Origin: Planctomycetales bacterium 71-10
Lineage (GTDB): Bacteria > Planctomycetota > Planctomycetia > Isosphaerales > Isosphaeraceae
DNA length: 64,000 nucleotides
Reading direction: 5' to 3'
NCBI GenBank assembly: GCA_001898385.1
Contig: MKTT01000074.1
Span: 92,685-156,684 of the forward strand
Below, one piece after another: positions 7,973 to 53,384 of the stretch (position 1 is the first letter of the stretch; the number at the start of each line of letters is the position of its first letter). A program made the position numbers and the translations under genes. Below the pieces are notes generated by a model, which was not told the DNA's origin, did not search any database, and was given only the letters and a program-made list of their open reading frames with translations.

Positions 7973-7994
7973 GATCGACCTCCGGGGAGATGCC

Positions 7995-10254: not shown

Positions 10255-10356
10255 GGACGAACCGCCCCGGAATCCCAGGGGCGTGGCACCGCGGCAATAT
10301 CCGACGGCCTTCGGCGAACATTCGGAGAGGGCCGGGGTCGATGTCGGAGGAAAGCC

Positions 10357-10611
10357 ATGAACGACGAGCGTCGGACCGATCACCCTTGCCCCGCCTGCGG
10401 CGGCCGATCGTATTCCTGGGGCCAGATCCAGGCCCACCAATTCCGATTCGTCCCTGACGGGGCGTCGATGTTGTACCGATTTTTCGGCGGGAACTGGTGG
10501 CTCCGCGCCCGGCGTTGCGACCACTGCGGCAACCTCCAGGTCTTCACCGAGCCGGACCCGTCGCAGGCGGGCAAGCCGGCCCGGAAGCCCGAGGCGGACG
10601 ATCTTTCGTGA
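10357..10611 (+). CDS. Small zinc-ribbon protein
   Basis: An 84-residue protein starting at ATG 10357 after GGAGGAAAG. Two Cys pairs, CPACGG near residue 11 and CDHCGN near 54, form a probable zinc ribbon. The segment between is aromatic (FRFVPDGASMLYRFFGGNWW). It is divergent from the haem operon. No function is assigned. Confidence 0.7.
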   Translation: MNDERRTDHPCPACGGRSYSWGQIQAHQFRFVPDGASMLYRFFGGNWWLRARRCDHCGNLQVFTEPDPSQAGKPARKPEADDLS

Positions 10612-10652
10612 CCTCAAGCGATCGGCCTGGGGGATTGCGGGGCGGTCGGCCC

Positions 10653-10658
10653 TATAAT
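10653..10658 (+). promoter_or_regulatory. Consensus -10 TATAAT before the phasin-like gene
   Basis: TATAAT 73 bases before ATG 10731. The nearest -35-like TTGCGG (10635) is only 12 bases away, so the -35 is weak or absent. Confidence 0.4.
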
Positions 10659-10730
10659 AGTCATTGAGGGCGAACGGGCCGCGATCGTCCGCGGGCCCGA
10701 TCCCCGGAGCGATGCGAAGGAAGGCCGCCG

Positions 10731-11054
10731 ATGATCGACCAGATCAAGAAGACGATGCTGACCGGCCTGGGCCTGGCTCTGATGACCAAGGACAAGGTGG
10801 AGGAGCTGGGCCGCGACCTGGCCGAGCAGGCCAAGCTCGGCGAGGGCGAGGGCCGCGAGTTCGTCGACAACCTGATGAAGCAGTCCGAGAACGCCCGCGG
10901 CGAGTTCGAAGCCCGGGTGAACGCCCTCGTGAAGAAGGCCGTCGAGGGCCTCAACATGGTCCACAAGGACGACCTGGCCAAGCTCCAGGCCCGCGTCGAC
11001 GAGCTGGAGGCCGAGCTGAAGAAGCACGAAGGCACCCCGTCCCACGCCGGCTGA
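10731..11054 (+). CDS. Phasin-like coiled-coil protein
   Basis: A 107-residue, highly charged helical protein. It opens MIDQIKKTMLTGLGLALMTKDKVEEL, the amphipathic start seen in PhaF/phasin-superfamily proteins, and ends in a heptad-like helix (LAKLQARVDELEAELKKHE). Phasins coat polyhydroxyalkanoate granules or regulate their synthesis. No PHA synthase is in the window, so the granule role is inference. The ribosome site AAGGAAGG lies just upstream. Confidence 0.75.
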   Translation: MIDQIKKTMLTGLGLALMTKDKVEELGRDLAEQAKLGEGEGREFVDNLMKQSENARGEFEARVNALVKKAVEGLNMVHKDDLAKLQARVDELEAELKKHEGTPSHAG

Positions 11055-11147
11055 GATGGCCGACATCCCCTCGCGCCTTGCGACCGGCCCGGCGGGGTGA
11101 TCTAATCCCCGGCCGGGAGTTCGATGGCCGGAGGGGATGATGCCATC

Positions 11148-11747
11148 ATGACCGACGTCTCGGATCCGCGAGCCGACGACGCGACCGCCGTCGTCGGCAC
11201 GGCTTCATACTGGCATCACGAGGCCGAGTTCCTCGCCGCGCGGCGGGCCATGAACATCGCGCGGGGGCGGCCCGACGGGTTCTGGTGGCGGCTGCCCATG
11301 ATCCTGTTCGCCCACTTCCTCATCCTCCTCGGGCTCCTGGGAGTGGGGATCGCGGCCAGGAAGGGGGAATGGTCGGCCCTTGTGCTGACCGCTTTCTTCG
11401 GGCTCCCCGGGCTCGTCTTCGCCTACCGCTGGGGCTACGGCCGATGTCGCCGGCTGCGGAAGGAGTTCGCCGACAACCCCACGGCCGGCCTCAAGATCGA
11501 CCTGACCTTCACGCCGGATCGGCTGCTCACGCATTCGTCGAGATCGGACGACTCCTATCGATGGGCGGCCTTCCCGGCCGTCGTCGAGCTGCGCGACGGG
11601 TTCTTGCTCATGGCCTGGGCGAGGACGGGCGTCTGGATCCCCAAGCACGCCTTGAAGGGGATCGACGCCCCGGGGCTCGCGGCCTTCCTGCGGTCGAAGG
11701 TCGCGCGGTATCGCGTGGCGAGGCGCACCGCACGGATCTCGGAGTGA
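11148..11747 (+). CDS. YcxB-like membrane protein, first copy
   Basis: This is about 199 residues (the track start at 11124 is an alternative). An N-terminal cytosolic segment precedes two adjacent hydrophobic helices (FWWRLPMILFAHFLILLGLLGVG and ALVLTAFFGLPGLVFAYRW). A C-terminal beta-rich domain then reads IDLTFTPDRLLTHSSRSDDSYRW and WIPKHAL, typical of YcxB-like C-terminal domains. The gene seven bases downstream encodes a diverged copy with the same layout. Function unknown. Confidence 0.65.
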   Translation: MTDVSDPRADDATAVVGTASYWHHEAEFLAARRAMNIARGRPDGFWWRLPMILFAHFLILLGLLGVGIAARKGEWSALVLTAFFGLPGLVFAYRWGYGRCRRLRKEFADNPTAGLKIDLTFTPDRLLTHSSRSDDSYRWAAFPAVVELRDGFLLMAWARTGVWIPKHALKGIDAPGLAAFLRSKVARYRVARRTARISE

Positions 11748-11754
11748 CCCGCCG

Positions 11755-12366
11755 ATGGAGCTGCGCGACTTCCCGTTCCTGGACGACCCGGCCCGCGCGA
11801 TCGGCTGGGGCTCGTACCGGCTCACCGAGGACGAGTTCGTCGTCGCCAACCGGGCCGCCCGGATGGCGATGGCGCCCTGGTATCGATCCCGGCCCTGGGC
11901 GATCGTCTTCTTCGGCTTCTGGCACGCGACATTCCTGTTCGGGCTGTACCTGGCGTTCCTCGTGCCCCGACCCGCGGGGGACGGGTTCAACGTGGATGGC
12001 GTCACCCTGGCCGTCGCCTCGGGCTGGTTCCTGTGGCTGCTCCTCTACGGCGTGAACCGGCGGATACGAGCTGCGTTCCGCACGTTTCCTACGGCCGGCG
12101 ACGAAATCGCCCTGGCCTTCACCGCCGACCGCTTCATCGGCCGCACAAGCCTGGGCGACTCCAGCGACGATTGGGCGTTCCTCCGCCGCGTCGCCGAACT
12201 TCACGACGGCTTCCTACTGGTGCTGAAGATTCCGAATGGCTCGATATGGCTCCCCAACCACGCCCTCGCCGCCCCGTTCGACCATCAGGCCGCCGCGGAG
12301 TTGTTCCGGTCGAAGGTGCCTCGATACCGGGTCGTCGACCGCGCGGCCAGTGCGGCGTCGGCCTGA
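11755..12366 (+). CDS. YcxB-like membrane protein, second copy
   Basis: A 203-residue protein with the same plan as its neighbour: YRLTEDEFVVANRAAR, two hydrophobic helices (WAIVFFGFWHATFLFGLYLAFLV and LAVASGWFLWLLLYGV), then IALAFTADRFIGRTSLGDSSDDWAF and WLPNHAL. The two C-termini share FRSKV.RYRV. This is a tandem duplication with moderate divergence. The ribosome site GGAG lies in the end of the previous gene, so the two are cotranscribed. Confidence 0.65.
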   Translation: MELRDFPFLDDPARAIGWGSYRLTEDEFVVANRAARMAMAPWYRSRPWAIVFFGFWHATFLFGLYLAFLVPRPAGDGFNVDGVTLAVASGWFLWLLLYGVNRRIRAAFRTFPTAGDEIALAFTADRFIGRTSLGDSSDDWAFLRRVAELHDGFLLVLKIPNGSIWLPNHALAAPFDHQAAAELFRSKVPRYRVVDRAASAASA

Positions 12367-12470
12367 CCGCAATGCGCGCACGGCGTCGCATCGCCAGGCC
12401 GATCGGAGAGCCGAATGGGAACGATACGCCGAACCGTCACGTCCGGCACCGTGTCAAAGTCTGGGGATCA

Positions 12471-12499
12471 TTGAATCGACCCCGGCCAGTGCCTATACT
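12471..12499 (+). promoter_or_regulatory. Promoter of argH
   Basis: TTGAAT, 17 bases, TATACT, about 75 bases before the GTG start of argH. Good sigma70-type spacing and sequence. Confidence 0.6.
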
Positions 12500-12572
12500 T
12501 GACTCTGGATTGCTGAATCCGCGCGCAGCGGTTGGGACGCGCATCGGGCGACGACGCGAAAGGGGTCGGGAC

Positions 12573-13955
12573 GTGGCGAGCAAGCCCTGGGGCGGGCGGT
12601 TCGAGGCCGGGACGGATCGGCGGGTGGAGGAGTTCACGGAGTCGATCTCGTTCGACCGCCGGCTCTTCCGTCACGACGTCCTGGGCTCCCAGGCGCACGC
12701 CCGGATGCTGGCGCACGTCGGCCTGCTGACGCGGGACGAGTGCGACGCCATCGTCGCGGGGTTGTCGGAGATCCGGGCGAGGATCGAGGCCGGCGACTTC
12801 CCGTTCGTGCTGGAGCGGGAGGACGTCCACATGCACATCGAGGCCGCCCTCACCGAGAAGCTGGGCGACCTCGGCCGCAAGCTCCACACCGGCCGCAGCC
12901 GCAACGACCAGGTCTCCACCGACGTCAAGCTCTGGGCCCGCGACGCGATCGACCGCGTCGACGCCGGCCTGCTCCACCTGCAACGGGCCTTCGTCCGCTC
13001 GGCCGACCGCCATCGAGGGATCATCCTCCCCGGCTACACGCACTTGCAGCGTGCCCAGCCGGTGTTGGCCCCGCATTACTTCCTGGCGTTCGTCGAGAAG
13101 CTCGAACGCGATCGCGGGCGCCTGGCCGATGCCCGCAAGCGGCTGAACGTGCTCCCGCTGGGGGCCGCGGCGCTCGCTGGCACGAGCATCCCCATCGACC
13201 GCGAGTTCGCCGCCCGCGAGCTGGGCTTCGACGGCGTCGCCGCCAACAGCCTGGACGTCTCCAGCGACCGCGACTTCGCCATCGAATCCGTCTTCGCCCT
13301 GACGCTGGTCGCCGAGCACCTGGCCGGCTGGGCCGAGGAGTGGATCCTCTGGAGCACCCAGGAGTTCGGCTTCCTGGCGCTGCCCGATGCGATCTGCACC
13401 GGCTCCAGCATCATGCCCCAGAAGAAGAACCCGGACGTCCTGGAGCTGATCCGGGGGCGATCGGCCCGGGTGGTCGGCTCGCTGACGACGCTGCTGGTGC
13501 TCATCAAGGGCCTGCCGCTGGCGTACAACCGCGACCTCCAGGAAGACAAGCTCCCCCTGTTCGACGCCTTCGACACCGTCGAGGCGTGCGTCGACCTGGC
13601 GGCGGTGGTCGTCGAGGGGGCGAACCTCCGGCCCGACCGCATCCGCGAGCGGCTGGACGAGGGCTACCTCGACGCCACGACGCTGATGGAGCACCTGATC
13701 CTGCAAGGCGTCCCCCAGCGCACCGCGCACGAGGTCATCGGCCGGCTTGTCGGGTTGTGCGAGCGCCAGGGCCTCAAACGCCTGGCCGACCTGTCCGACG
13801 CCGACCTCGCGGAAGCCTCACCGAAGCTGGGCCCCGAGGCCCGCGACTTGCTGGGCGTGGAGGCGGCGATCCGGGCGTTCAAGTCGTACGGCTCCACCGC
13901 CCCGGCGGAGGTGGAGAAGCAGTTGGAGCGGTGGAAGACGAAGCTGGGCCTCTGA
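12573..13955 (+). CDS. argH: Argininosuccinate lyase
   Basis: This enzyme cleaves argininosuccinate to arginine and fumarate, the last step of arginine synthesis. The track ORF (12033) is overlong. GTG 12573 follows AGGGG at seven bases and gives the family-typical 460 residues, opening VASKPWGGRF. Key motifs are HTGRSRNDQV, TSSDRDF-like SLDVSSDRDF and the fumarase-superfamily signature GSSIMPQKKNP near residues 276-286. argG lies 40 kb away in the same direction, so the pathway genes are split. Confidence 0.96.
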   Translation: MASKPWGGRFEAGTDRRVEEFTESISFDRRLFRHDVLGSQAHARMLAHVGLLTRDECDAIVAGLSEIRARIEAGDFPFVLEREDVHMHIEAALTEKLGDLGRKLHTGRSRNDQVSTDVKLWARDAIDRVDAGLLHLQRAFVRSADRHRGIILPGYTHLQRAQPVLAPHYFLAFVEKLERDRGRLADARKRLNVLPLGAAALAGTSIPIDREFAARELGFDGVAANSLDVSSDRDFAIESVFALTLVAEHLAGWAEEWILWSTQEFGFLALPDAICTGSSIMPQKKNPDVLELIRGRSARVVGSLTTLLVLIKGLPLAYNRDLQEDKLPLFDAFDTVEACVDLAAVVVEGANLRPDRIRERLDEGYLDATTLMEHLILQGVPQRTAHEVIGRLVGLCERQGLKRLADLSDADLAEASPKLGPEARDLLGVEAAIRAFKSYGSTAPAEVEKQLERWKTKLGL

Positions 13956-14015
13956 AGGTCGATCGACGATCCGCGGACTTTTGCCAAGCCGCCCCGCGGC
14001 CGGGGAGACGCGACG

Positions 14016-14903
14016 ATGACGGACATTCCGACTCCCGCACACCTCCTCGGGTTGATCCGCCAATTTCGCGGCGGGGAAAGCGAACCGGGCAAAGACGCGA
14101 TCGCCGGCCTGCTGGCGAAGCTGGAAGGCGAGGATTCGGCCGGTCTCCTCGAAGCGGCTCAAGACCTGGCGAGGATCGAACCGGCGTCGGAGGTAGCGAT
14201 CGCCCTGCTGCGGCGACGCCTCGACCATGCCGACTGGGACGCCAGGTTCTCCGCCGCCTGCGGCCTCGGCTGCTTCGAGCCGGCGTTCCCCATCCTCCAT
14301 GCGATGCTCGACGACGAGGACGCTCAGCGTCGTGCGCTGGGGGCCGTCGGGACGTCGTGCAGCCCTCGAGCCGCGGACGCCGCCTCCGACCTGATCCGCC
14401 TGCTGGAAGACCCTGACGCCGAAGTCCGCTTGCGGGCGGTCGACGCGATCCGGTCTGTCGCGGACGACGCGGGAGTGCGCGCGTCGGCCTCGGTGGTCCC
14501 GAGGCTCACCGCCTTGATTCAGGACGCAGACGAAAGGATCAGCTCCCGGGCTATCGCGGCGCTCACGGCGTTTGGCCCGGCCGCTGCACCGGCCGTCCCG
14601 GCCATCGCCAGCCTCCTGCGGCACCCGGTTTACTGGGTCCGATGGGAGGCCATCGGCGCCCTGGCCGACATGGACGCGGAGGCCGTCGCGACGGCCGTCC
14701 CCGACCTGATCCCGCTCCTCCGCAGTACGCTCGCGGAGGAACGCTCGGCGGCGGCCGAAGCGTTGGGGTGCATCGGGCCCGCCGCCGCCGCTTCTCAGGA
14801 TGAGCTGGCCCGCCTGGGCGGCGAAGACCCGGACGAGATGGTCCGGGCATACGCCCTCGAAGCCCTCGCCCGGATCCGCAACCCCGGAACCATCGACGAG
14901 TGA
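14016..14903 (+). CDS. HEAT-repeat protein
   Basis: A 295-residue cytosolic alpha-solenoid. Several HEAT/PBS-lyase-like units of about 30 residues are visible, for example [15 protein letters not shown]-type, [35 protein letters not shown] and [14 protein letters not shown]. Such proteins act as scaffolds or in chromophore-lyase-like roles; no specific job can be assigned. It ends at the lysA upstream region, and the GTG at 14900 overlaps its stop, but the likely lysA start is later. Confidence 0.8.
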
Positions 14904-14974
14904 CGACCCGGACCGCGACGGCGGGCGAGAGCCGCCTCCCGTCTCAAACCTTTTGGAACGAAGATCGAGCCTCC

Positions 14975-16258
14975 ATGGAAGCCTTTCAGTACCGCGGGAA
15001 TCAGCTCCACTGCGAAGACGTCCCCGTCGCCAGGCTGGCGGAGGAGCACGGGACGCCGCTGTACGTCTACAGCGGGTCGGCGATCGTGGAGGCGCTGAAG
15101 ACGCTGCAAGAGGCGTACGCCGAGGTCGACCCGCTGGTCTGCTACTCGGTGAAGGCGAACTCGAACCTGGGCGTGCTGAAGCTGCTGGAGGCCAACGGCA
15201 GCGGGTTCGACGTGGTCTCCGGCGGCGAGCTGTTCCGCGTGCTGAAGGCGGGCGGCGACCCGGCGAAGACCGTGTTCGCGGGCGTCGGCAAGAGCGACCC
15301 CGAGATCGCCCAGGCCATCGAGGCCGGCGTGCTGATGTTCAACGTCGAGAGCGAGGCCGAGCTGGACGCCATCGCCCGCGTGGCGACGTCGATGGGCCGG
15401 GTCGCGCCGATCGCGCTGCGGGTCAACCCCGACGTCGACCCCAAGACGCACCGCTACACGGCGACCGGCCAGAAGCAGTCGAAGTTCGGCGTGGACATCG
15501 AGCGGGCCCTGCGGATCGCGGAGGCCGTGAAGGGGATGCCGAGCCTGACGATGATCGGCATGCACATGCACATCGGCTCGCAGATCACCACGGTCGAGCC
15601 CTACGCCAAGGCCGTCGCCAAGGGCGTGGAGCTGATCGCCAAGCTGCGCGAGATGGGCCACCCGATCGCCTGGTACAACATGGGCGGGGGGTACGGGATC
15701 GGCTACCGGGGGCCGGAGGCGAAGCCCATCAAGGAGTTCGCCGCGGCCATCCTGCCCGGGATCAAGGCGACGGGGTGCCGGCTGGCGATCGAGCCGGGGC
15801 GGGTGATCGCCGGGAACGCCGGCGTGCTCGTGAGTCGTGTGTTATATACCAAGCAGTCGGGCGACAAGCGGTTCGTCATCCAGGACGCCGCCATGAACGA
15901 CCTGATCCGGCCGGCGCTCTACGAGTCGTTCCACCGGATCTGGCCGGTGGCGGTGCCGGACGGGCTGCCGGCGCCTCCGGCCGACTACGAGGCCGAGATC
16001 CCCGGGACCGAGCCGCGGGACGTCGTCGGCCCGGTCTGCGAGAGCGGCGACTTCCTCGCCAAGGACCGGGCGCTGCCGCCGCTGGACCGGGGCGACCTCC
16101 TGGCGACGTTCTCGGCCGGCGCCTACGGCATGGTCATGGCCTCCAACTACAACACCCGCCCCCGCGCCGCCGAGGTGCTCGTCGAGGGGGACTCGGCCCG
16201 GCTGGTCCGCCGCCGCGAGACGCTCGACGACCTGGTCGCCGCGGAGGAGGGCCTGTAA
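14975..16258 (+). CDS. lysA: Diaminopimelate decarboxylase
   Basis: This PLP enzyme decarboxylates meso-diaminopimelate to lysine. The start is taken at ATG 14975 ([11 protein letters not shown]), giving 427 residues, rather than GTG 14900, because family members begin near this point. The PLP lysine lies in CYSVKANSN at about residue 60. HMHIGSQ, the phosphate-binding [19 protein letters not shown] and [11 protein letters not shown] follow in the family order. A GC hairpin directly after the stop may end transcription. Confidence 0.95.
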
Positions 16259-36688: not shown

Positions 36689-37252
36689 TCATGCTGATGG
36701 TCCGATCGGTCGTTCCATCGCCCGGATGTTCCCATACCACCAGGGATAATCCTCGGCGCGATTGCACAGGCCGGCTTCGACGGGGTTCTTCAGCATATAG
36801 ACCCACTTCTCCCAGAACTCTTCTTCATCGCGCATGATGCGATCGTATCGCTCTTCTTGCCAGAGCGAGCCGGACCGGCCATGCAACTTGCCGATCGCTC
36901 GCGAAGAGAAGCCCTTGTTCGTCCGCAGGATATCGGCGAGCGGGAGATATGAGCCGTCGGTCGCCCGAACGGGCGTCAGCAGGACGTGCACATGATCGGG
37001 CATCACGACGACGGCGTGCAGGTTGTAACGTCGGCCGTCCCAGTGCTTCCAATTGTCGAGGATGACCGTGCGATCCGCGTCGTCGAGGCTTCGCCCAGGG
37101 ACGCAACGATACGTCAAGAAATAAGTCGAGCCGCCCATCTGCCAGTGTGGGAGCGTTCGTCGCTTCCGGATCAAGAGACCATCGACAGGCCGACCGCCGG
37201 GTCGAGGATCGGGGGGATTGGGCTCGGCCACGACTCGCCCCCTGGCGCGCAT
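36689..37252 (-). mobile_element. REP-associated tyrosine transposase (RAYT, Y1/HUH family)
   Basis: This is about 187 residues from ATG 37252; the longer track ORF merely translates the flanking REP repeat. The HUH motif is in VVMPDHVHVLLTP, and the catalytic Tyr is in YMLKNPVEAGL. GSTYFLTYRCVPG and SLWQEERYDRI are also typical of TnpA_REP proteins. It is flanked by REP palindromes on both sides (36631 and 37271-37355), the usual arrangement in which a single-copy RAYT maintains REP elements. The frame is intact, so it may be active. Confidence 0.9.
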
Positions 37253-37270
37253 GCCTCGACACGGACGGAC

Positions 37271-37355
37271 CGGAAGGGTGGTCCGGGCGGTCCGCCCGGA
37301 CGTCGAAGGCTTCGGAATGGGGACGTCCGGGCGGACCGCCCGGACCACCCTTCCG
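37271..37355. repeat. Inverted pair of REP elements (BIME) 5' of the RAYT gene
   Basis: Copy 2 (37271-37304, GGAAGGGTGGTCCGGGCGG...) and copy 3 (37322-37355) are reverse complements of each other, separated by about 17 bases. Both match the copy at 36631. Confidence 0.85.
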
Positions 37356-37415
37356 GTCATGTCGCCGCCCTGGGCAGGCCCCCAGGGGGCCTGCCCAGGC
37401 CATCAGCGAACGGCG

Positions 37416-40400
37416 TCACCGCGAGGCGACGGCCTTCGACGACTTGTCGCCGGGCTTGGCGAGGGGGTCGTGGGCGGCCTCCTCGTGGCCGATGAGGTCG
37501 ATGAGGATCGGCGTGGCGATGTAGATGGTGCTGTAGGTGCCGCTGAGGAACCCGACCACCAGGGCGAAGGCGAATCCGTGGAGGCCCTCGCCGCCCAGGA
37601 GGTAGAGGACCACGACGACGAGCCAGGCCGTCAGCGACGTCAGGATCGTCCGGCTGAGGGTCTGGTTGATGGCCTCGTTGACCAGGGCGGGGGTTAGGTG
37701 GGGGGTCTTCCCCTTGATCTCCCGGATGCGGTCGAAGATGACGATCGTGTCGTTGACCGAGAAGCCGATCAGCGTCAGGAACGCCGCGACGATCGGCAGG
37801 TCGATCTTGAACTGGTCGATCATCAGGAGCGAGTTCAGGCCGGGGATCAGGGCCAGCCAGTAGCTGACGGCGATGGCGCCCAGGGTGATCAGGACGTCGT
37901 GGACCACGGCGAGGACCGCGGCCAGGCCGTAGGTGAACGAGTGGAAACGCCACCACAGGTAGAAGATGATGATGAGCCAGCTCGCCACGGTGGCGATCAG
38001 GGCCAGGGTGCTGGTCTCCGAGGCGACCGTGCTGCCGAAGTTCGCGATCCGCTCGAAGAGCATGTCGCGGTTGTTCGCCAGCGAGTCCTTCAGCGCGGCG
38101 AGCTGCGCCTTGGCGACGTCGGCGTCCAGGTCGGTCTTGAGGGCCAGCTTCGTCCCCTCGACGGCCGCCTTGTCGGCCGACGAGCCGGCGGCGACGATCT
38201 CGAACCGCGAGGTCGGGTTGACGATCCCGGCGGCGTCGAGGACGCGGGCGAACTCGGCCGAGACGACCTGGGCCGGCGGCTGGGTGCTGTTGAAGGCCGT
38301 CGTGTTGAACGACAGCTCATACTCGCGGCCCCCGGCGAACCGGGCGGCGACCGTCGGCGCCTTGGCCTCGCCCCCCCCGGCCGCGGCCGGCGCGCCGGCG
38401 ATGGCCTTCTCGGCGCCGACCGTCATGTCGATCTTGGCCAGCGACGGGCCGAACGCCTCGATGATCCTGTTCTTGACCTGCTGCACGTCCTGGTCGGTCG
38501 TCCGGATGTTGAACCGGGCGGCCTTCGCCGCCTGGCCGCCGCTGACGCGGAGGCTCTCGATGGTCACGTCGGGCAGGACGCCGGCCTTCTCGCGGACGAA
38601 CTCGGTCCGCTGGCTGTCGGTGAGGCTGCGCACCGTGGCGTCCCCCTCGTTCAGCCGGATCGTGACCAGGGTGCCGCCGGTGAAGTCGATGTTGTACATC
38701 GTCCGGCCGCGGGCGAAGAACGCCCCCAGGCCCAGCAGGATGACCACCAGCGAGATCGCCATGCAGTAGTAGCGCGGGCTGACGAAATCGATGCTCGTCT
38801 TGTCCCACATCTTGCGGAACCGCAGCTCCTTCAGCCAGCCCTCGGCGTAGGCCGTCTCGAAGATGAACCGCGACATGAAGACCGCGGTGAAGAGGTTCCA
38901 GAGCATGCCCAGGATCATCGTCAGGGCGAAACCCTTCACCTCCTCCGTCCCCACCGCGTAGAGCACCACGGCCGCCAGCAGGTTGGTGACGTGCGAGTCG
39001 AAGATCGTCACCCACGCCCGGTTGAAGCCGTTGCGGATCTGCTGGGCCAGGCCCGCCCCGCGCTCCTTCTCCTCGCGCATGCGCTCGAAGACGAGCACGT
39101 TGGCGTCGACCGCCATGCCGATCGTCAGCGCCAGCCCGGCGAGGCCGGGGAGCGAGAACGTGGCCTGGATGAAGGCCATCGAGCCGACCAGCAGGATCAT
39201 GTTGACGACCAGGGCGACCACCGCCACCACGCCGGCGAAGCGGTAGTACCAGATCATGAAGATCGGCACGACGAGCATGGAGACCCAGATGGCCCGCCAG
39301 CCCTTGGCGATGGAGTCCTCGCCCAGCGTCGGGCCGACGTTCTCCTCCTGGAGCGGCGTCTTGTTCAGGCTCGCGGGGAGGCTGCCGGCCTGGAGGATGT
39401 TGATGAGGTGCTGGACCTCCTTCACCTTGAAGCCCTGGCCGCCCCCCTCGATGATCCCCGAGTCGCGGATCTCCGAGTTGATCGCCGGGGCCGACATCAC
39501 CAGGTTGTCCAGCAGGATGGCGAGCTGGTAGTGGAACCGGCCCCCTTCCTCGGGCAGGTGCTCGCGGGTGAGCTGGCCGAACTTCCGCGCCCCCTGGCGG
39601 TTGAACTGGAAGCCGACCGCCGGCTGGAGCTTCTCGTCGGTCTGCTGATAGGCCCGCGAGAGGTTGGCGCCCGTGACGTTCTGGCGGTCCTCGACCACCA
39701 GGATGTAGACCTCGGTCCGGCCGGCGGCGACCTTCTCCTCGCGGATGATCGGGTCGGAGGGCTGGGGATCCGCCGGGTTGCCGCCGCGGATGCCGCTGGG
39801 GTTGTACGAGACCTCGTAAGACGTGATCGTCTTGAGGCCGTGGGGCTCGGCCAGGGTCAGCGTGTCGGCCGTGTTGTTCTTGATCGGGATCGCCAGCCGC
39901 TTCTCGGCCCCGCCGGCGTCCTTGCCCGCCACGACCACCTCGGCCCCGGCGTAGATTTCGCGCTTCCAGTTCTGCTGCGGGTCGGTGATCGTGTCGGCCG
40001 TGAACCGGGGGTCGGAGCCGCTGGAGGTCTCGCCGAGCCGGGCCCACTTGTATCGCGCCGGGGGCTTGGCCAGGCCGCCGGGGCCCATCGCGCGGGCGAC
40101 GGCCTCGGAGTCGTGCTTGCGGTTGGCGAGGATCCGGAACTCGAGCGAGCCGACGTCCGTCAGCATGCTCTTGACCTCCTCCACCTCCTCCGGGCCGGCC
40201 TTGGGCAGGATGATCTCGATCCGGTTGTTCCCCACGTTGCGGATCGGCGTCTCCTTCACGCCCTGGGGATCCGCCCGCTGCTTCAGCGCCGCGATCAGCT
40301 CCTGCATGTTGAAGTTCGGGGCCGAGACGCTCGCCTTGTCCACCTCGTAGACGAGGATCGTCCCCCCGGAGAGGTCGATGCCGAGCTTCAGCTTCTTCTC

Positions 40401-40478
40401 CGGCGGATACATGGCGATCAGCCCCAGCAGGGTCGACCCCACGATCAGGAAGCTCTTCCAGTTCAACAGTCTGTTCAT
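37416..40478 (-). CDS. secDF: Fused protein translocase subunit SecDF
   Basis: A 1020-residue fusion of SecD and SecF, which use the proton gradient to pull proteins through SecYEG. The SecD half begins MNRLLNWKSFLIVGS, has the P1 start GIDLSGGTILVYEVD and ends with helices containing GLALTIGMAVDANVLVFERMREE. The SecF half has NIDFTGGTLVTIRL, VVHDVLITLG, GFSVNDTIVIFDRIRE and GFLSGTYSTIYIATPIL. Both periplasmic regions are longer than in E. coli, notably about 200 extra-type residues in SecF (AGAPAAAGGGEAKAP...). It is last in the alphaCTD-tgt-yajC-secDF operon. Confidence 0.95.
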   Translation of the reverse strand: MNRLLNWKSFLIVGSTLLGLIAMYPPEKKLKLGIDLSGGTILVYEVDKASVSAPNFNMQELIAALKQRADPQGVKETPIRNVGNNRIEIILPKAGPEEVEEVKSMLTDVGSLEFRILANRKHDSEAVARAMGPGGLAKPPARYKWARLGETSSGSDPRFTADTITDPQQNWKREIYAGAEVVVAGKDAGGAEKRLAIPIKNNTADTLTLAEPHGLKTITSYEVSYNPSGIRGGNPADPQPSDPIIREEKVAAGRTEVYILVVEDRQNVTGANLSRAYQQTDEKLQPAVGFQFNRQGARKFGQLTREHLPEEGGRFHYQLAILLDNLVMSAPAINSEIRDSGIIEGGGQGFKVKEVQHLINILQAGSLPASLNKTPLQEENVGPTLGEDSIAKGWRAIWVSMLVVPIFMIWYYRFAGVVAVVALVVNMILLVGSMAFIQATFSLPGLAGLALTIGMAVDANVLVFERMREEKERGAGLAQQIRNGFNRAWVTIFDSHVTNLLAAVVLYAVGTEEVKGFALTMILGMLWNLFTAVFMSRFIFETAYAEGWLKELRFRKMWDKTSIDFVSPRYYCMAISLVVILLGLGAFFARGRTMYNIDFTGGTLVTIRLNEGDATVRSLTDSQRTEFVREKAGVLPDVTIESLRVSGGQAAKAARFNIRTTDQDVQQVKNRIIEAFGPSLAKIDMTVGAEKAIAGAPAAAGGGEAKAPTVAARFAGGREYELSFNTTAFNSTQPPAQVVSAEFARVLDAAGIVNPTSRFEIVAAGSSADKAAVEGTKLALKTDLDADVAKAQLAALKDSLANNRDMLFERIANFGSTVASETSTLALIATVASWLIIIFYLWWRFHSFTYGLAAVLAVVHDVLITLGAIAVSYWLALIPGLNSLLMIDQFKIDLPIVAAFLTLIGFSVNDTIVIFDRIREIKGKTPHLTPALVNEAINQTLSRTILTSLTAWLVVVVLYLLGGEGLHGFAFALVVGFLSGTYSTIYIATPILIDLIGHEEAAHDPLAKPGDKSSKAVASR

Positions 40479-40704: not shown

Positions 40705-41037
40705 TTACTCGGACGCCTCCACCACCCGCGAGACGCTGGAGCGGGCGAACTTCATCCGGACTCCATTCACGTCGTCGACCCGAAGGACGACCGCGTCGCC
40801 CCCCTCGTCGACCGACACCACGACCCCGTAGACGCCGCCGGCCGTGACCACCCGGTCGTTCTTCTTCAGGGCGGACAGCATCGCCCGGCGCTTCTTCTCC
40901 TGATCCTTCTGCGGCAGGTAGATCATGAAGTAGAAGAGCAGGGGGATCGGCAGCAGGAACAGCAGCGTCGTGAAGTTGCTGGGCGCCGCCGCGTCCTGGG
41001 CGAGCAGGGGGGCGATCGCGTCGAACAATCCGGGCAT
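40705..41037 (-). CDS. yajC: Sec translocon accessory protein YajC
   Basis: This is 110 residues from ATG 41037 (MPGLFDAIAPLL); the track start is too early. One membrane helix (FTTLLFLLPIPLLFYFMIYLP) is followed by the family signature QKDQEKKRRAMLSALKKNDRVVTAGGVYGVV and a small beta domain. YajC binds SecDF, encoded next. It follows tgt in the operon. Confidence 0.95.
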   Translation of the reverse strand: MPGLFDAIAPLLAQDAAAPSNFTTLLFLLPIPLLFYFMIYLPQKDQEKKRRAMLSALKKNDRVVTAGGVYGVVVSVDEGGDAVVLRVDDVNGVRMKFARSSVSRVVEASE

Positions 41038-41129
41038 CGTATGGGGGTCCGTTCGGTCTCGTTGCGTCTCGCGAGGGCCGCGCGGCCCGATCGGGGCCGG
41101 CGGCGGCCGGAATCCCTGCACTCTAACGC

Positions 41130-42293
41130 CTAGGGTCCCAACGCTTCAAGGACGTCCAACCGCAACTGGACGAATCGGCCCTCGCATATCGCCTCGCGCA
41201 TCCGGCGCGTGAGGCGGTGGAGGTACGCCAGGTTGTGGATCGACGCCAGGATGGGCCCAAGCATCTCCTTGGCCATGAACAGGTGGCGAAGGTAGGCCCG
41301 CGAGAACTTCGCGCAGGCCAGGCAGTCGCACCCTTCCTCCAGCGGCCGGGGGTCGCGGGCGTGGGCCGCGTTCCGCAGCTTGACCGGCCCGGCGTCGGTG
41401 AAGCACGTCGCGTTGCGGCCGTTGCGGGTCGGCATCACACAGTCGAACATGTCGATCCCGGCCAGGACCGCGTCGAGCAGATCCTGCGGCCGGCCGACGC
41501 CCATCAGGTAGCGCGGGCGGTCCTCCGGCAGCCGGTGGACGGAGACGTCGAGCGCCTTGCGGACCTCCTCGCGGCTCTCGCCGACGCTCACGCCGCCGAC
41601 CGCGTAGCCGTCGAAGTCCATGGCGATCAATTCGTCGGCGCAGCGGGCCCGAAGGTCCTCGTGCGCGCCCCCCTGGACGATGCCGAACAGGGCCTGGTCG
41701 GGCCGGGACTTCGCGGCCTTGCAGCGCGCGGCCCAGGCGACGGTTCGGTCGACGGCCTTCTCGATCTGCGCCTTCGCGGCCGGGAGGGCGGGGCACTGGT
41801 CGAGGCACATGGCGACGTCCGCGCCGAGCGCCTCCTGGATGGCCACGGCGCGCTCGGGGGTCAGCTCCAGGAGCCGGCCGTCCAGGTGCGAGCGGAACGT
41901 CGCGCCGCGGTCGGTGATCTTCGCCTTGTCGGCCAGGCTGAAGACCTGGAAGCCGCCCGAGTCGGTGAGGATCGGGCCGTCCCAGGCCATGAAGCGGTGC
42001 AGGCCCCCCAGCGCCGCGACGGTCTCCTCGCCGGGCCGGAGGGCCAGGTGGTAGGTGTTGGCGAGGATCATCCCGGAGCAAACGTCGCGCAGCAGGCCCG
42101 GGGTCAGGCCCTTGACGGTCGCCTGGGTGCCGACGGGCATGAAGACGGGGGTCTCGACCGGCCCGTGGGGCGTGTGCAGGATCCCCGCGCGGGCGTCCGA
42201 TCCGGCGTCGCGCGCCGTCGGGGTGAACCGGACGGGGCGGACGCCGGGGATGATCGGCGCGGGGGGGATCTCGGGGGCGTCGCTCGGGCTCAA
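41130..42293 (-). CDS. tgt: Queuine tRNA-ribosyltransferase
   Basis: A 387-residue enzyme that exchanges guanine-34 for the queuosine precursor in GUN-anticodon tRNAs. Catalytic Asp motifs are DSGGFQVFS and [19 protein letters not shown]; the zinc site is [18 protein letters not shown]. The start in the track is TTG at 42293, seven bases after the preceding stop, with no clear ribosome site, so it may rely on coupling and the true start is uncertain. tgt-yajC-secDF order is classical. Confidence 0.95.
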
Positions 42294-42300
42294 GGGGGGC

Positions 42301-43692
42301 TCAGTCGTTCTTGAGCTTCAGGCCGAGCGCCCCGAGCTTGTCGCGGACCTCGTTGAGCGAGGTGACGCCGAAGTTCTTGCACTCCAGCAGGTCGTCGCCG
42401 GACCGCTTGGTGAGGTCGCCGACGGTCTGCAGGTTGAGCTTGCTCATGCACTTGCGGGCCCGGACGGAGAGGCTCAGCTCGCTGATGGGCTTGCTGAGCA
42501 TCGCCTGGACCTCGGGCGAGACCTCCTGCACGGGCTCCGAGCGGTGGTCGACGCCCCCCGGCCCACCGCGCTCGGCGCCTTCCAGGGCCATGCCCAGGCG
42601 GACGCCCTTGGACCGCATCATCTCCTTGATCTCGGCGAGCGAGGTCTCGCCGAAGTTCTTGGAGGCGAGCAGGGCGGCCTCGGTGGTGCGGGTGAGGTCG
42701 CCGAGCGTCCGGATGTTCATCTTCCGCAGGCAGTTGCGGCTGCGGACGGACAGCTCGAAGTCGGTGACGGGGATTTCGAGGAGCTGCTTGAGGACGGTGT
42801 AGCCCTTCTCGGCCTCCTCGTCGTAGTACATCCCCTTGCTGGCCTGGCAGTCCTTGACGAACAGCCGGGCGCGGGGGTGGTTGGGGTCGTGCTCCAGGAC
42901 GTGCCGGTAGCACTGCTCGGCCTCGCGGAACTTCATCTCGTCCTCGTACAGGACGCCCAGGTTGATCCAGGCGGCCAGCGGGACGGGAGGGCGCTCGGTG
43001 CAGCGCTTGTAGAAGTCGACGGCGGCGTCGTCGTTGCCGTAGAGGTCGTTGATGTAGGCCAGCTCGAAGAGGGCCCCGTTGTGGTCGCGGTCCAGGCTGA
43101 GGGCCTTCTCCAGCTCGGCGGCGGCCGGCTCCAGGTCCCCCTCGGCGGCGAGGATGGCGCCGCGCTGGAAGTGGTACTCGGCGGACGAGCCGACGGTCTT
43201 CTCCAGCCCTTCGAGGATCTTCTTGGCCTCCTCGACCTTGGCGAGGCCGGCCTCGACCTTGCCGTCGGCCACCTCCATCCGGCCCAGGCGGCGCAGGGCC
43301 CCGGCGCGGCGGAGTTCGGAGTTCCGGGCGTCGTAGCCGAGCTTGGCCGACTGGGCGAACGCCGCGGCGGCCTCGGCGTACTTCTGGAGGTTCTCGTAGG
43401 CGAGGCCCTGGAAATAGAGGGCCATGCCGAGGTCGCCGGCGTTCTTGAGGCAGACGAGCCCGGCGGAATAGCGGCCCAGCAGGACCTCGCCGACGCCCAG
43501 GCGGAGGAAGCTCTCGGGCGTGCCCGAGGGCTCCTTCTTCTCGCGGTCGCGGATCGTGGAGACGGCGTCGCGGAGCGTCCGATAGCGGGAGGGGTCGCGA
43601 TTGAGCACCTCGCGCAGGTCGGCGACGGCCGATGCGTCGAAGGGCGTGCGATCCATGATCGCGCGGACGTCCGTGGTCATCATCTCAGTCAT
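42301..43692 (-). CDS. TPR protein with two RNA-polymerase-alpha C-terminal-like domains
   Basis: A 463-residue protein. Residues 60-285 are TPR-type helices ([47 protein letters not shown]). Two alphaCTD-like helix-hairpin modules follow. At about 305-365: [20 protein letters not shown] and [11 protein letters not shown]. At about 400-460: [20 protein letters not shown] and [11 protein letters not shown]. The Arg that in E. coli alpha (R265) contacts UP-element DNA is kept in both (R317, R411); the Lys equivalent to K298 is Thr in both. No polymerase alpha N-terminal domain is present. It heads the tgt-yajC-secDF operon. DNA binding is plausible but unproven. Confidence 0.88.
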
Positions 43693-43787: not shown

Positions 43788-43815
43788 ATCTTAGCGATTT
43801 CGCTTGACTTGTCAA
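43788..43815 (-). promoter_or_regulatory. Near-consensus promoter of the alphaCTD-tgt-yajC-secDF operon
   Basis: On the minus strand, TTGACA, 16 bases, TAAGAT, with the start codon about 95 bases on. The -35 lies in a small inverted repeat (TTGAC-TT-GTCAA on the plus strand, 43804-43815) that could be an operator. Confidence 0.65.
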
Positions 43816-43955
43816 AGACCGGCGTTTCACGACCGCGGGCCCGCCCGCCCGGGAGGTCGGACGGCTCGACCATCCCGAGGACGCCGAGTTCGCGGGGCCG
43901 GCGCGCATCCCGATCGCGCCGGTCGGGATGCGCCCCCGGGCCGGTCGCGCGGAAT

Positions 43956-45938
43956 TCACGGCGTCACGATGCCGAACCAGAACTCGAAGCTGTCGAGGTT
44001 CGAGACCAGCTCATCCAGCTTCGCGCGGTCCCCGGCGATCTTCACGTCGCCGGCCTGAATCGCGTCCGCCAGCTTCGTCTCCTGGAGGATGATCTTGTTG
44101 AGCGTGTCGCGGGAGAGGGCGACCGTCGCGTCGGCGTCGGCGGCCTGACGGTCGGCCGTATGGTTCAACACGCCGTTCTCCATCTCGATCACGTACTTGC
44201 CGGAATCGCCGAAGTCGAAGTTGAACGTCGCCTTCGCCTCGGCGGCCTTCTCGCGATCGAGGCGGACGGAGAGGTAGTCGAAGAACATCTCCAGGGTCAT
44301 GGCCCGCACGGTGTCGGGGCTGGCGGTGTTCGGCGTCGGGAGCTTCTTCACGCCCTCGCGAAGCTCCTTGGCGCCGGACAGGTAGAAGTTCCGCCAGGGC
44401 CCGGCCTCGGCCTGATAGCCGAGCTGTTCGAGGGCGTCGGCCTGGAGTTCCCGCGCCGCCCGGTTGCCCGGATCGGCGAAGACGACGTGGTTCACGACCT
44501 GGGCCACCCACCGGTACTCGCCCCGGGCGTAGGAGTCCTTCGCCCTGGAGAGCACGGCCTCGGCCCCGCCCATGAACTCGACGTACTTCTTGCTGGACTC
44601 GACCGGCGGCAGTTCGTGCAGGGTCGCCGGGTTGCCGTCGAACCAGCCCAGATAGAGGACGTAGGTGGCCTTCACGTTGTGGCTCACCGAGCCGTAGTAG
44701 CCGCGGCCGGCCCAGACGTGGGCGAGGCCGTCGGGGATCCGGAAGCGCTCGGCGATCTCGTCGCGCGTGTAGCCGTGGTTGGCGAGCCGGAGCGTCTCGT
44801 CGTTGATGTAGCGGTAGAGGTCGCGCTGCGACCTGAGGAGCTTGTCCACCCCGGCGTTGCCGAACGTGGGCCAGTGGTGCTGGGCGAACATCACCTCGGC
44901 CTTGCCGCCCCACATCACCAGCGCCTGGTTGAGGTACTTCGACCACGGCAGCGGCTCGCGGATCTTGGCGCCCCGCAGCGAGTAGGTGTTGTGCAGCGTG
45001 TGCGTGCAGTCCTCGGCCGCGGCGACGGCCTTCTTCTCCTCGATGAACCAGAGCATCTCCGACGGGGCTTCCGAGCCCGGGGCCATCAAGAACTCGTAGG
45101 TCAGCCCGTCGATGACGTGCTTCTCGCCCGTCTCCTTGACGAAGTCGGTCGGCGGGATGAGCGTCACGGTTCCCGCCGAGGTCGTCGTGCCGAGGCCGGC
45201 CCCGACCTGCCCCCTGGCGTCGGGGGGCAGCAGATTGCCGTACATGTAGCTCGCCCGGCGGCTCATCGTGTTGCCGGCGAAGACGTTCTCCGCGACGGCC
45301 GCCTCCAGGAAGCCTTCCGGCGCGTAGACCTTCACCGTGCCGGACTTCACGTCCGCCTCGCTCGTCACGCCGCGGACGCCGCCGTAGTGGTCGACGTGGC
45401 TGTGCGTGTAGATCACCGCCTTCACGGGCTTCCGCGGGCGATGCTTGAAATACAGCTCGAGACCGACCTTCGACGTCTCCTCCGAGACCAGCGGGTCGAC
45501 GACGACGATCCCCTCGGCCCCCTCGATGATCGTCATGTTCGAGAGGTCCAGGTTGCGGACCTGGTAGATGCCGTCGGCGACCTGGAACAACCCGCTCACG
45601 TTGATGAGTTGGGATTGCCGCCAGAGGCTGGGATTGACGGTGTCGGGGGCCGCGACCCCTTCCTTGATGAAGCCGTACTTCGTCGGATCCCAGATCAGGT
45701 TCCCGGCCTGGCCCTTGATCAATTCGCTCGGGAGCGGCGCGACCAGCCCTTTCTTCGCGTCGTCGAAATCGGACGTGTCGGCGAAGGGAAGCTGCTCCAG
45801 CAGCCGGGCGTTCGCCGCCTTCGTGGCGTCGGTCGCGTCCTTGCGAAGATCCTGGGCCTGCACGGAAGCGAAGGTCGCGATCGCCGCGATGGAGGCGGCG
45901 ATCGCCGACGAGCCGAGAGGACGAAAGCGTAGGTCCAC
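43956..45938 (-). CDS. Exported metallo-beta-lactamase-fold alkyl sulfatase (SdsA/YjcS-like)
   Basis: This is about 660 residues from GTG 45938, preceded by AAGGA and opening a signal peptide (LRFRPLGSSAIAASIAAIATFASVQAQ); the track start 12 codons earlier is less likely. The metal site THSHVDHYGG lies near residue 180, and further ligands in AAEDCTHTLHNTY. HHWPTFGNAG and RDLYRYINDETLRLANHGYT belong to the dimerisation region, and the C-terminal 130 residues are an SCP2-like domain. Family members hydrolyse primary alkyl sulfates such as SDS to alcohol and sulfate; the natural substrate is unknown. Confidence 0.92.
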   Translation of the reverse strand: MDLRFRPLGSSAIAASIAAIATFASVQAQDLRKDATDATKAANARLLEQLPFADTSDFDDAKKGLVAPLPSELIKGQAGNLIWDPTKYGFIKEGVAAPDTVNPSLWRQSQLINVSGLFQVADGIYQVRNLDLSNMTIIEGAEGIVVVDPLVSEETSKVGLELYFKHRPRKPVKAVIYTHSHVDHYGGVRGVTSEADVKSGTVKVYAPEGFLEAAVAENVFAGNTMSRRASYMYGNLLPPDARGQVGAGLGTTTSAGTVTLIPPTDFVKETGEKHVIDGLTYEFLMAPGSEAPSEMLWFIEEKKAVAAAEDCTHTLHNTYSLRGAKIREPLPWSKYLNQALVMWGGKAEVMFAQHHWPTFGNAGVDKLLRSQRDLYRYINDETLRLANHGYTRDEIAERFRIPDGLAHVWAGRGYYGSVSHNVKATYVLYLGWFDGNPATLHELPPVESSKKYVEFMGGAEAVLSRAKDSYARGEYRWVAQVVNHVVFADPGNRAARELQADALEQLGYQAEAGPWRNFYLSGAKELREGVKKLPTPNTASPDTVRAMTLEMFFDYLSVRLDREKAAEAKATFNFDFGDSGKYVIEMENGVLNHTADRQAADADATVALSRDTLNKIILQETKLADAIQAGDVKIAGDRAKLDELVSNLDSFEFWFGIVTP

Positions 45939-46117
45939 GGCCGTGTTCCTTGAGAGGGAGGTGAGAAACGCCACGCCCGGCCGATCTTCCCACCGGCCGC
46001 AAGAGCGCGTCGCCCCGAAGGGTCACAAGGCTGAGCCTCGTCGCCGGGGCCCCCGGCGATCTGCCGCAGAGCGATCGTAATCCCGGAGCCCGGCGAATGG
46101 TGGAAGTCCGCCGATGC

Positions 46118-50913: not shown

Positions 50914-52536
50914 TCACGAGCCGGCCCGGGGCCGGCCCTCGACGACGGGGGCCGGATCGGGGGCGAGGGCGCGATGCTCCAGCTCGATCAGGCGGCGGTA
51001 GACGCCCAGGGCCTCGGCGTCGCCCAGCTTGGGCAGGTTGGAGCCGAGGATGACGGCGTCGGCCCGTTCGAGCAGACGCTGATGCTTCACCCACCGGCGT
51101 TCGGGGCTGCGGGCCAGGGCGGCGGGGTCGGGCGCGCGGCGGGCGATGCGCCGGGAGAACGCCGCGTAGTCGGGCTGGGCCTCCAGCACGCGGCGGATCT
51201 CGTCGCGCTCCTCGGCGAGGATGCGGGGGGCGTCGGGATGGAAGGGGACGGTCAGCTCGGGCCAGCGGTCGGCCAGGGCGGCGCGGAGGCGGGCGGCGGC
51301 GGGGGAGGGCCCGCGGCCGTTGAAGTTCGGGCCGCCCGGCGGCGGCGCCTGGGCGGTCGGCCCATGGTCCTCGTGGCCTTCGGCCGGGTTCGGGCCCTGG
51401 TCGCCCCCGCGGCCCCGCCGGCGGTTGCGCTCGGGGTCGATCTCCCCGGCCTTCGAGCGGGCCTTCGCCAGCCGGTCCTCGCCGTCGAGGCCGAGGGCCT
51501 GCGAGAGGCCCTCCAGCGCCGCGCGCTGCGAGGGCGAAGCGGCGGCGAGGACCGTCGACCAGGGGGCGTCCTGGGGGAGGAGGCCGCGGGCCTCGTCGTC
51601 GCCCCCCCTGGCGAACCGGCTCCGGTCGCGGATCAGGCGGTCCGAGGTCGTCGTCGGGATGTCGATCGTGTCGGACGTCAGCAGGACGTGGGCGAACGCC
51701 TCGTCGAACGTCGTCCGGCCGTCGCCGTCGAAGTCGGGCTTCGCGACGGCCCGGCCGGTGCGAGTCTCGCCCAGGATCGCCTCGAAGAACGAGGTGGAAA
51801 ACTCGTGGTAATCCTCCTCGTCGACGTCCGGGGTGCAGCCGGCGGCGGTGCGCGTGGCGACCGTCGAGAAGAACCCGGCGCGGGGATGGCGGGCGAGGCC
51901 CTTCGCGGGGTCCCCCTCGTTGTAGATGACGTTCGCAAACCCGCCGGAGTAGCACTGCACCATCACCAGCGTCAGGTCGACGCCCGGGTCCAGCTTGTCG
52001 AGTTGGGCGGCGAACTGCCGGACCGAGAGCGCGTTCGGGTGGCCGGGCATGACCAGGGTGGTGTCCCGGGGGGCGTCGCGATGCGCCGGGTCGGGCCCGC
52101 CGTGGCCGGTGAAGTAGAACACCAGGCGCTCGCCCGGCGGCAGCGACCGGCCGACGACCTCGAACCAGGCGTCGACGTTGGCGACGCTCGACGGCCCGAC
52201 CAGGCCCGGCAGCCGGACCTTCTCGTACCGGATGTCGGCCTCGTCGTTGTTCATGAGGATCATCCCCAGCGCGCGGGCCAGTCGCTGGTCGTCGCCGTCG
52301 GGGAGCCGATACTGGACCGAGTTCCGCGCGCCGCCGTCGCCGAAGTAGACGTCATGCCGCGCGTCCCCCAGGCCGACGCCCGCCAGCACGCGCCGGAAGT
52401 ACTCGACGTTCCGCTCCAGCGAGACCTGGTTGTGCGACGGCGGGCCGCCGCCGAACGTCACCACGTGCGTCCCGGCCGCGACCGTCGCGGCCCAGCCTCC
52501 CACGATCGCGAAGGCCAGCCCGTGCGCGAGTCGCAT
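50914..52536 (-). CDS. Exported caspase-like (clan CD) protein with EF-hand
   Basis: This is 540 residues from ATG 52536; the signal peptide is MRLAHGLAFAIVGGWAATVAAG. The caspase/legumain-type dyad is visible: His145 in VFYFTGHGG and Cys195 in LVMVQCYSGGF, each after a hydrophobic strand. Residues 268-279 (DFDGDGRTTFDE) are a canonical calcium EF-hand loop between the catalytic domain and the C-terminus. The C-terminal half is helical and charged, with a Pro/Gly-rich linker. It is probably a secreted cysteine peptidase with Arg/Lys or Asp/Asn specificity; activity is not shown. Confidence 0.82.
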   Translation of the reverse strand: MRLAHGLAFAIVGGWAATVAAGTHVVTFGGGPPSHNQVSLERNVEYFRRVLAGVGLGDARHDVYFGDGGARNSVQYRLPDGDDQRLARALGMILMNNDEADIRYEKVRLPGLVGPSSVANVDAWFEVVGRSLPPGERLVFYFTGHGGPDPAHRDAPRDTTLVMPGHPNALSVRQFAAQLDKLDPGVDLTLVMVQCYSGGFANVIYNEGDPAKGLARHPRAGFFSTVATRTAAGCTPDVDEEDYHEFSTSFFEAILGETRTGRAVAKPDFDGDGRTTFDEAFAHVLLTSDTIDIPTTTSDRLIRDRSRFARGGDDEARGLLPQDAPWSTVLAAASPSQRAALEGLSQALGLDGEDRLAKARSKAGEIDPERNRRRGRGGDQGPNPAEGHEDHGPTAQAPPPGGPNFNGRGPSPAAARLRAALADRWPELTVPFHPDAPRILAEERDEIRRVLEAQPDYAAFSRRIARRAPDPAALARSPERRWVKHQRLLERADAVILGSNLPKLGDAEALGVYRRLIELEHRALAPDPAPVVEGRPRAGS

Positions 52537-52684
52537 CTCGATCCCCCCCGGTGACCCAACCCCGCCCGGGGCGCATCGCCCCCATTCCAATAAAGTAGCG
52601 TCGACGCAAGCCGGCGTGGATTCGGTTTCCGCCGGGGCGCCCCGGAATCCCCGGGGGCGGAAGCGGCCTACGGCCGAGGACCGC

Positions 52685-52714
52685 TTGTCGGGATCCGGGC
52701 GATCCAGGAATAAT
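52685..52714 (+). promoter_or_regulatory. Candidate promoter of the toxin-antitoxin pair
   Basis: TTGTCG, 18 bases, AATAAT, about 54 bases before the antitoxin GTG start. Confidence 0.45.
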
Positions 52715-52767
52715 AGGGATGGCGTCGAGCCCATCGCTCCACGCCATCCCCCGCGAGGGACGCCGCC

Positions 52768-53001
52768 GTGAGTACGATCACGATCCAGGAAGCCCAGGCC
52801 CGATTGACGGAGTTGATCCGTCAGCTGAACCCCGGCGACGAAGTCGTCATCACCGAGGGCGATCGGCCCGTGGCCCGCCTGACGACGGCCCCCCTCCCCG
52901 AGCCGAGGCCCCGCCGCCTGGGGACGCTCCGGGGGACCGTCCTCCGCATGGCCCCTGACTTCGACGAGCCGCTGGACGATTTCCGGGAGTCCATGGAGTG
53001 A
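52768..53001 (+). CDS. Type II antitoxin (Phd/VapB-like)
   Basis: A 77-residue protein with a GTG start after GAGGGA. The N-terminus STITIQEAQARLTELIRQLNPGDEVVITEGDRPVARL is the Phd/YefM-type DNA-binding fold; the C-terminal tail (DFDEPLDDFRESME) is the acidic toxin-binding arm. Its stop overlaps the toxin's GTG by four bases, the standard translational coupling. It should repress its own promoter together with the toxin. Confidence 0.88.
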   Translation: MSTITIQEAQARLTELIRQLNPGDEVVITEGDRPVARLTTAPLPEPRPRRLGTLRGTVLRMAPDFDEPLDDFRESME

Positions 53002-53384
53002 GGCTGCTGATCGACACCCACGCCTTGATCTGGGCCGTCGAGGCCCCCGAAAGGCTCGGTGAAACGGCGGCCGAGGCCATCCGGACACCCTCGAACATGC
53101 TCCTCCTCGGGGCCGGATCGATCTGGGAACTGGCGATCAAGACGAGCCTCAAGAAGCTGTCCCTCTCGATCCCCTACAGGTCGTGGATCGAACAGGCGAT
53201 GGAAGCGCTGGGGGCGACCCTCCTCCCGATCACCGTCGATCACGCGGACGTGCAGGCCGGACTCCCGTGGCATCATCGCGACCCGTTCGACCGCCTGCTC
53301 GCGGCCCAGGCCAAGGTTGAACACCTTCCGTTGATCAGCGCCGATCTCGTCTTCGACCTCTACGGCGTCACCCGCATCGGGTGA
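52998..53384 (+). CDS. PIN-domain toxin (VapC-like ribonuclease)
   Basis: A 128-residue single PIN domain with the acidic metal ligands in order: LIDTHALIW (Asp6), IWELAIK (Glu), HHRDPFDRLLAAQA (Asp) and LISADLVFDLYGV (Asp). VapC enzymes cut tRNA or rRNA to stall growth. It is coupled to the antitoxin by GTGA and ends 49 bases before argG. Confidence 0.9.
   Translation: MRLLIDTHALIWAVEAPERLGETAAEAIRTPSNMLLLGAGSIWELAIKTSLKKLSLSIPYRSWIEQAMEALGATLLPITVDHADVQAGLPWHHRDPFDRLLAAQAKVEHLPLISADLVFDLYGVTRIG

Follow-up and report, generated by a model that had tools for sequence, protein, structure and literature searches.

A near-universal planctomycete protein that joins TPRs to two RNA polymerase alphaCTD modules: a candidate transcription factor?

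What could a bacterium do with the DNA-binding tail of its RNA polymerase, twice, in a protein outside the polymerase? The question is raised by one gene in the window (the whole 64,000-nucleotide stretch of DNA that was analysed), and it is not a question about a single organism, since the gene is near-universal in Planctomycetota and is kept by about 99% of good genomes of the phylum. If the protein is active at promoters, RpoA alone will be insufficient for understanding alphaCTD-dependent regulation in Planctomycetota. An initial annotation had placed a TPR protein with two alphaCTD modules at 42301-43692. These coordinates are correct and the strand is minus (Table 1). We searched the open-access literature for the TPR-double-alphaCTD architecture, or for its phylum-wide presence, and found no paper. 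The domains themselves would show up in any Pfam scan, and databases will accordingly list their names.

Table 1. Coordinates of the TPR-alphaCTD gene, its parts and its neighbours in the window
Feature	Position	Strand	Details and basis
Gene for TPR / double-alphaCTD protein	42301..43692	(-)	463 aa; ATG at 43692, stop 42303-42301; ORF, Pfam domains, same-architecture orthologues phylum-wide
TPR superhelix, residues about 59-286	42835..43518	(-)	Pfam, AF2 helices pLDDT above 90, short orthologues
alphaCTD module 1, residues 302-370, R317 = E. coli R265	42583..42789	(-)	PF03118, alignment, fold match
Linker, residues 371-398, low-confidence	42499..42582	(-)	AF2 pLDDT, orthologue lengths
alphaCTD module 2, residues 399-463, R411 = E. 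coli R265	42304..42498	(-)	PF03118, alignment
Promoter-like TTGACA-N16-TAAGAT, about 95 bp upstream of ATG	43788..43815	(-)	sequence and congeneric comparison
tgt (queuine tRNA-ribosyltransferase)	41130..42293	(-)	PF01702 E=3.6e-153; start 7 bases downstream of TPR-alphaCTD stop
yajC	40705..41121	(-)	PF02699
secDF, fused	37416..40478	(-)	PF02355, PF22599, PF07549
Alkylsulfatase-type metallo-beta-lactamase-fold enzyme, upstream of TPR-alphaCTD gene	43956-45974	(-)	Alkyl_sulf_dimr, Alkyl_sulf_C, Lactamase_B, SCP2

Architecture and contact residues

Two stretches of the protein match PF03118 (RNA_pol_A_CTD), at E=6.3e-41 for the protein as a whole (138 bits, the cut-off being 23.8). Scored singly in a six-frame search of the protein's own genome, the modules reach E=4.6e-20 and 8.2e-20, or 73-74 bits each, and the only other PF03118 match in that genome is rpoA, which is complete and lies on a separate contig (G000:C98). 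Pfam gives no match to alpha-NTD in the TPR-alphaCTD protein, and RpoA profiles stay far under their cut-offs (e.g. 136 vs 302 bits) and cover the C-terminal part only. With PF03118 found twice, alpha-NTD absent and rpoA elsewhere, the annotation was right to see two real alphaCTDs and nothing else of alpha. A chance match is ruled out by the E value (6e-41), by the presence of two modules and by the phylum-wide occurrence. We also rejected an RpoA fragment or an assembly artefact, given the complete rpoA on another contig and the same architecture in dozens of independent genomes.

TPR matches above cut-off (PF13181, PF00515 and others) cover residues about 90-275, and this part resembles consensus TPRs in Foldseek comparisons. 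The last three TPRs (about 170-286) are common to all lineages, in some of which the whole protein has only 300-340 amino acids. An AlphaFold2 model of the entire protein has a mean pLDDT of 93, with values under 50 at residues 376-390 of the linker, whose length is 19-41 residues among 66 orthologues. When the C-terminal part of the model is compared with alphaCTDs in the PDB, TM (target) is 0.8-0.95 and the best rmsd 0.7-1.1 A. Among the structures matched are two CAP-alphaCTD-DNA complexes (1lb2 and 3n4m), an alphaCTD/sigma4 complex bound to UP and -35 DNA (3n97) and the Caulobacter alphaCTD on A/T-rich DNA (9zum); the C-terminal half matches solved alphaCTDs at the sequence level too.

Conservation was counted in E. 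coli numbering, with the E. coli sequence checked, over the 66 orthologues, which lean to closer relatives, and 30 RpoA proteins. The 80 loci from the pattern scan described below were left out of the counts for module 1 because the pattern itself fixes those residues. R317 and R411, which the annotation had singled out as the key DNA-contact arginines, both align with E. coli R265, and this arginine is present in 100% of the orthologues in both modules. The other residues of this set in module 1 are N268 (95%), C269 (98%), N294, G296, S299 and E302 (100% each). Module 2 has N294, G296 and S299 at 98% and E302 at 100%, with Lys or Arg instead of Asn at position 268. R267, variable in RpoA, is kept at 98% in module 1 and 96% in module 2.

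In E. coli K298 and K291 of the alphaCTD are phosphate contacts. Neither is kept in the two modules, and we count this against the explanation that we prefer. Position 298 is Thr in both of them, but it is also Thr in 96% of planctomycete RpoA, so that the absence of K298 is not specific to the TPR-alphaCTD protein. D259 and E261 of alphaCTD contact sigma region 4. In module 1 they are kept at 93% and 98%, better than in RpoA of the same genomes, while position 261 varies both in module 2 and in planctomycete RpoA. The organism's own sigmaA has the region-4 basic residues equivalent to K593, R596, K597 and R603. Judged by sequence, the residues kept are consistent with a DNA- or sigma-binding role.

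Loss of the arginine in orthologues, which the annotation had named as evidence against its idea, was looked for in the most divergent of them by visual inspection of the sequences. Here 21 of 22 copies of module 1 and 18 of 20 of module 2 have R265, and it is never gone from both modules. Module 2 is absent in G088 and G354 and degraded in family f14 and in G244; in G220, R265 is gone from module 1 and present in module 2. None of the proteins examined had lost both modules. With module 2 degraded or absent in a few lineages and R265 of module 1 gone from one, a mechanism that strictly needs both modules cannot be universal. The proteins of G088 (L246) and G354 (L251) are natural single-module versions, intact in the remainder, that would be useful for separating the roles of the modules experimentally. 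Apparent split genes with free double alphaCTDs (G365, G324) turned out to be contig ends.

The modules share with the RpoA alphaCTD (PF03118) the fold and family, the R265/N294/S299/E302 set and the T298 of planctomycete RpoA. The TPR-alphaCTD protein differs in having no alpha-NTD, two copies per chain, a TPR fusion and a conserved R267. An alphaCTD outside RpoA is also seen in the small stand-alone 'hypothetical protein' NF005841 / PRK07758 (95 positions), but that is a single small domain with no TPR, and our protein scores 31 bits against its cut-off of 115. The profile of the BREX protein PglW (NF033442) matches the alphaCTD region as well, an alphaCTD-like module in a larger protein; PglW, however, is a kinase-containing defence protein, of which the TPR-alphaCTD protein is not a member (25 bits, cut-off 990). 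CAP, Spx and NusA, which bind alphaCTD in trans, could use the same interaction surfaces, but they are ligands of alphaCTD, whereas the TPR-alphaCTD protein carries alphaCTDs itself.

Distribution, age and gene neighbourhood

The phylum was surveyed in 392 genomes drawn evenly from Planctomycetota. A match was found in 384, a tally that includes values of E about 1e-11 to 1e-16, possibly the alphaCTD of RpoA alone; a recount at best E below 1e-30 leaves a homologue in 369 of the 392. At the same threshold it is present in 214 of 217 good genomes, i.e. those at least 90% complete and with at most 5% contamination. This near-universality had escaped the annotation. The three exceptions (G031, G143, G301) are fragmented assemblies in which a repeated search gave weak alphaCTD matches only. 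In a set of 29 genomes that spans many families, 24 contain exactly three alphaCTDs, those of RpoA and the two modules.

A scan of 84,980 species of bacteria and archaea relied on a DNA pattern for module 1 that detects only homologues with the exact signature. Among the matches listed, 79 of 80 were the TPR-alphaCTD protein and one was RpoA. Their titles were Planctomycetota or unassigned, except for two Proteobacteria-labelled MAGs (L126, L142), and none of the matches listed could be placed outside Planctomycetota. Spread beyond the phylum through these two MAGs was considered and rejected: their RpoA resembles planctomycete RpoA no less closely than that of other planctomycetes does, and we take the titles to be wrong. 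If the matches listed are an unbiased sample, other phyla could account for fewer than about 4% of all matches of the scan. No TPR-alphaCTD protein was found in viral contigs, and plasmid records gave alphaCTD matches only, none over more than 35% of the query.

Module 1, module 2 and the alphaCTDs of RpoA form three separate groups in a FastTree phylogeny (moderate supports, about 60 columns). The tandem is therefore ancient and predates the diversification of the phylum, and a recent duplication of one module is ruled out by the same tree. A few planctomycetes have further alphaCTD proteins, some small (open frames of 90-155 aa) and some long (567-1443 aa), at G369:C2:462995, G167:C1:4088706, G121:C4:337088, G353:C4:141009, G121:C4:1479137 and G373:C1:6862362.

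ORFs and Pfam domains bear out the seven-base gap to tgt that the annotation reported, with yajC and the fused secDF following. Downstream of the gene, the neighbours conserved from locus to locus are tgt-yajC-secDF, a SpoIID-family protein or ruvA: tgt is present in 22 of the 53 informative loci, spoIID in 32 and ruvA in 14. The full row, TPR-alphaCTD, ruvC, ruvA, ruvB, queH, spoIID, tgt, yajC and secDF, is seen in one genome (L065 of G206, 6949-16001), where ruvC, ruvB and queH were identified by their sequences. The cluster is broken up differently among lineages, most of which retain part of it together with the TPR-alphaCTD gene. Linkage to tgt-yajC-secDF is thus the remnant of one ancestral housekeeping cluster that has eroded elsewhere. 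The operon link that the annotation proposed is real and old, but the connection to translation and secretion genes that it drew was overstated, the cluster being a housekeeping one that runs from ruvC to secDF, is split in many lineages and gives no pointer to a function in tRNA modification or secretion. Because the gene is kept while this old cluster is broken up, its neighbourhood says little about its function. As a separate observation, a SpoIID-type protein is retained next to the TPR-alphaCTD gene in many planctomycetes.

An inverted repeat, TTGACAAGTCAA (43798-43820), contains the -35 hexamer of the promoter-like element; it is identical in the window and in 4 of the 5 congeneric genomes examined, and the -35 region stands out as conserved within upstream sequence that has otherwise diverged among them. 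Given this element and its conserved -35 region, the TPR-alphaCTD gene plausibly heads a transcript. The repeat is a possible operator, and perhaps the gene is autoregulated. As a marker of a regulon the repeat was discarded, since its one other genomic copy is inside a gene in a phage-like stretch.

Possible roles

That the DNA-contact residues are conserved nearly everywhere suggests a core transcription factor of Planctomycetota that has not been described yet. We are about half persuaded of a specific form of this idea, built on the residues kept: a minor-groove-binding transcription factor with the TPRs as a docking arm, module 1 close to sigma and module 2 as a second clamp. The TPR-alphaCTD protein would be a cytoplasmic, probably housekeeping, transcription factor. 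Its two alphaCTDs, joined by a flexible linker, would grip a narrow (A/T-rich) minor groove side by side, much like the alphaCTD pair of RNA polymerase on an UP element. In the closed complex at E. coli rrnBP1, R265 and N294 of both alphaCTDs are inserted in the minor groove and the pair forms a head-to-tail dimer, one domain beside the other (PMC7822876); by analogy, a tandem pair in one chain seems to have the right parts to imitate it. Module 1, the sole holder of the sigma-contact residues, may lie beside the -35 element in contact with region 4 of sigma, a preference read from two residues only, and module 2 may serve as the second DNA clamp. A partner, be it RNA polymerase, a regulator or another factor, would dock on the TPR part. 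As a result the protein would either recruit polymerase in trans or occupy UP-type sites.

The same residues can be read differently. E. coli NusA binds the alphaCTD face that binds DNA (PMC7171158), and for this reason conservation of R265 is no proof of DNA binding. An RNA-polymerase-associated elongation factor, whose alphaCTD modules bind NusA or some other alphaCTD partner while its TPRs tie in a second machine, is in our opinion fairly unlikely. Both NusA-NTD and AR2 bind alphaCTD in E. coli, and, because AR2 does so through the UP-element site, such a factor would conserve the same residues; a TPR part implies protein partners as well. Yet the AR domains are placed in E. coli and other gamma-proteobacteria (PMC7171158), and the minor-groove loop with N294, G296 and S299 is present in both modules. 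Binding faces on a protein that has no alpha-NTD for assembly into polymerase might also make a decoy, as the annotation suggested, or an antagonist, which would compete with the polymerase's alphaCTDs for activators or UP elements and lower the activity of promoters that depend on alphaCTD. We consider this unlikely: near-universality and the tight conservation of module 1, including its sigma-contact residues, fit a positive contact during initiation at least equally well.

If the two linked minor-groove binders simply bridged or coated A/T-rich tracts, with no specific promoter role, the protein would be a nucleoid or architectural one. A linker of 19-41 residues between two such modules and the basic module 2 (mean net charge +2.6) would suit this task, but module 1 is not basic (-0.2) and keeps its sigma face, and a large TPR domain is needless for a simple coating protein, so that we find this quite unlikely. 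The modules could even be domesticated folds whose new function lies outside transcription and is tied to the neighbours tgt-yajC-secDF, in tRNA modification or secretion. The downstream linkage does recur phylum-wide, as counted above; but it goes back to one ancestral housekeeping cluster, mostly kept in part while the gene stays, and such a function would not require the DNA-face residues to be kept. We regard it as very improbable.

A bolder form of the minor-groove-binding transcription factor can be put forward only tentatively, and we think it rather doubtful. This would be an essential, phylum-specific basal factor providing a second alphaCTD pair in trans, with module 1 on sigma at -35, module 2 as clamp, and TPRs recruiting polymerase or regulators. 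If it exists, such a factor would be a bacterial initiation factor of a kind not described before. To our knowledge, few transcription factors are kept by an entire phylum, and those few are usually well known. The question of a promoter role is testable at once in Planctopirus limnophila, for which a genome-wide transposon study of essential genes exists (PMC10632474).

Other features of the window

Two further loci attracted our attention. A gene at 36689-37360 has no Pfam match and encodes 'MPDHVHVL', a motif characteristic of REP-associated tyrosine transposases. It is flanked by a palindromic GC-rich repeat in three copies, two of which form a perfect 37-nt inverted pair, and the segment 36635-37360 looks like a REP/RAYT locus. 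On the minus strand, the reading frame at 50914-53088 (no Pfam match for the part tested) contains a 'FYFTGHGG' stretch, to our eyes reminiscent of caspase- or legumain-like peptidases.
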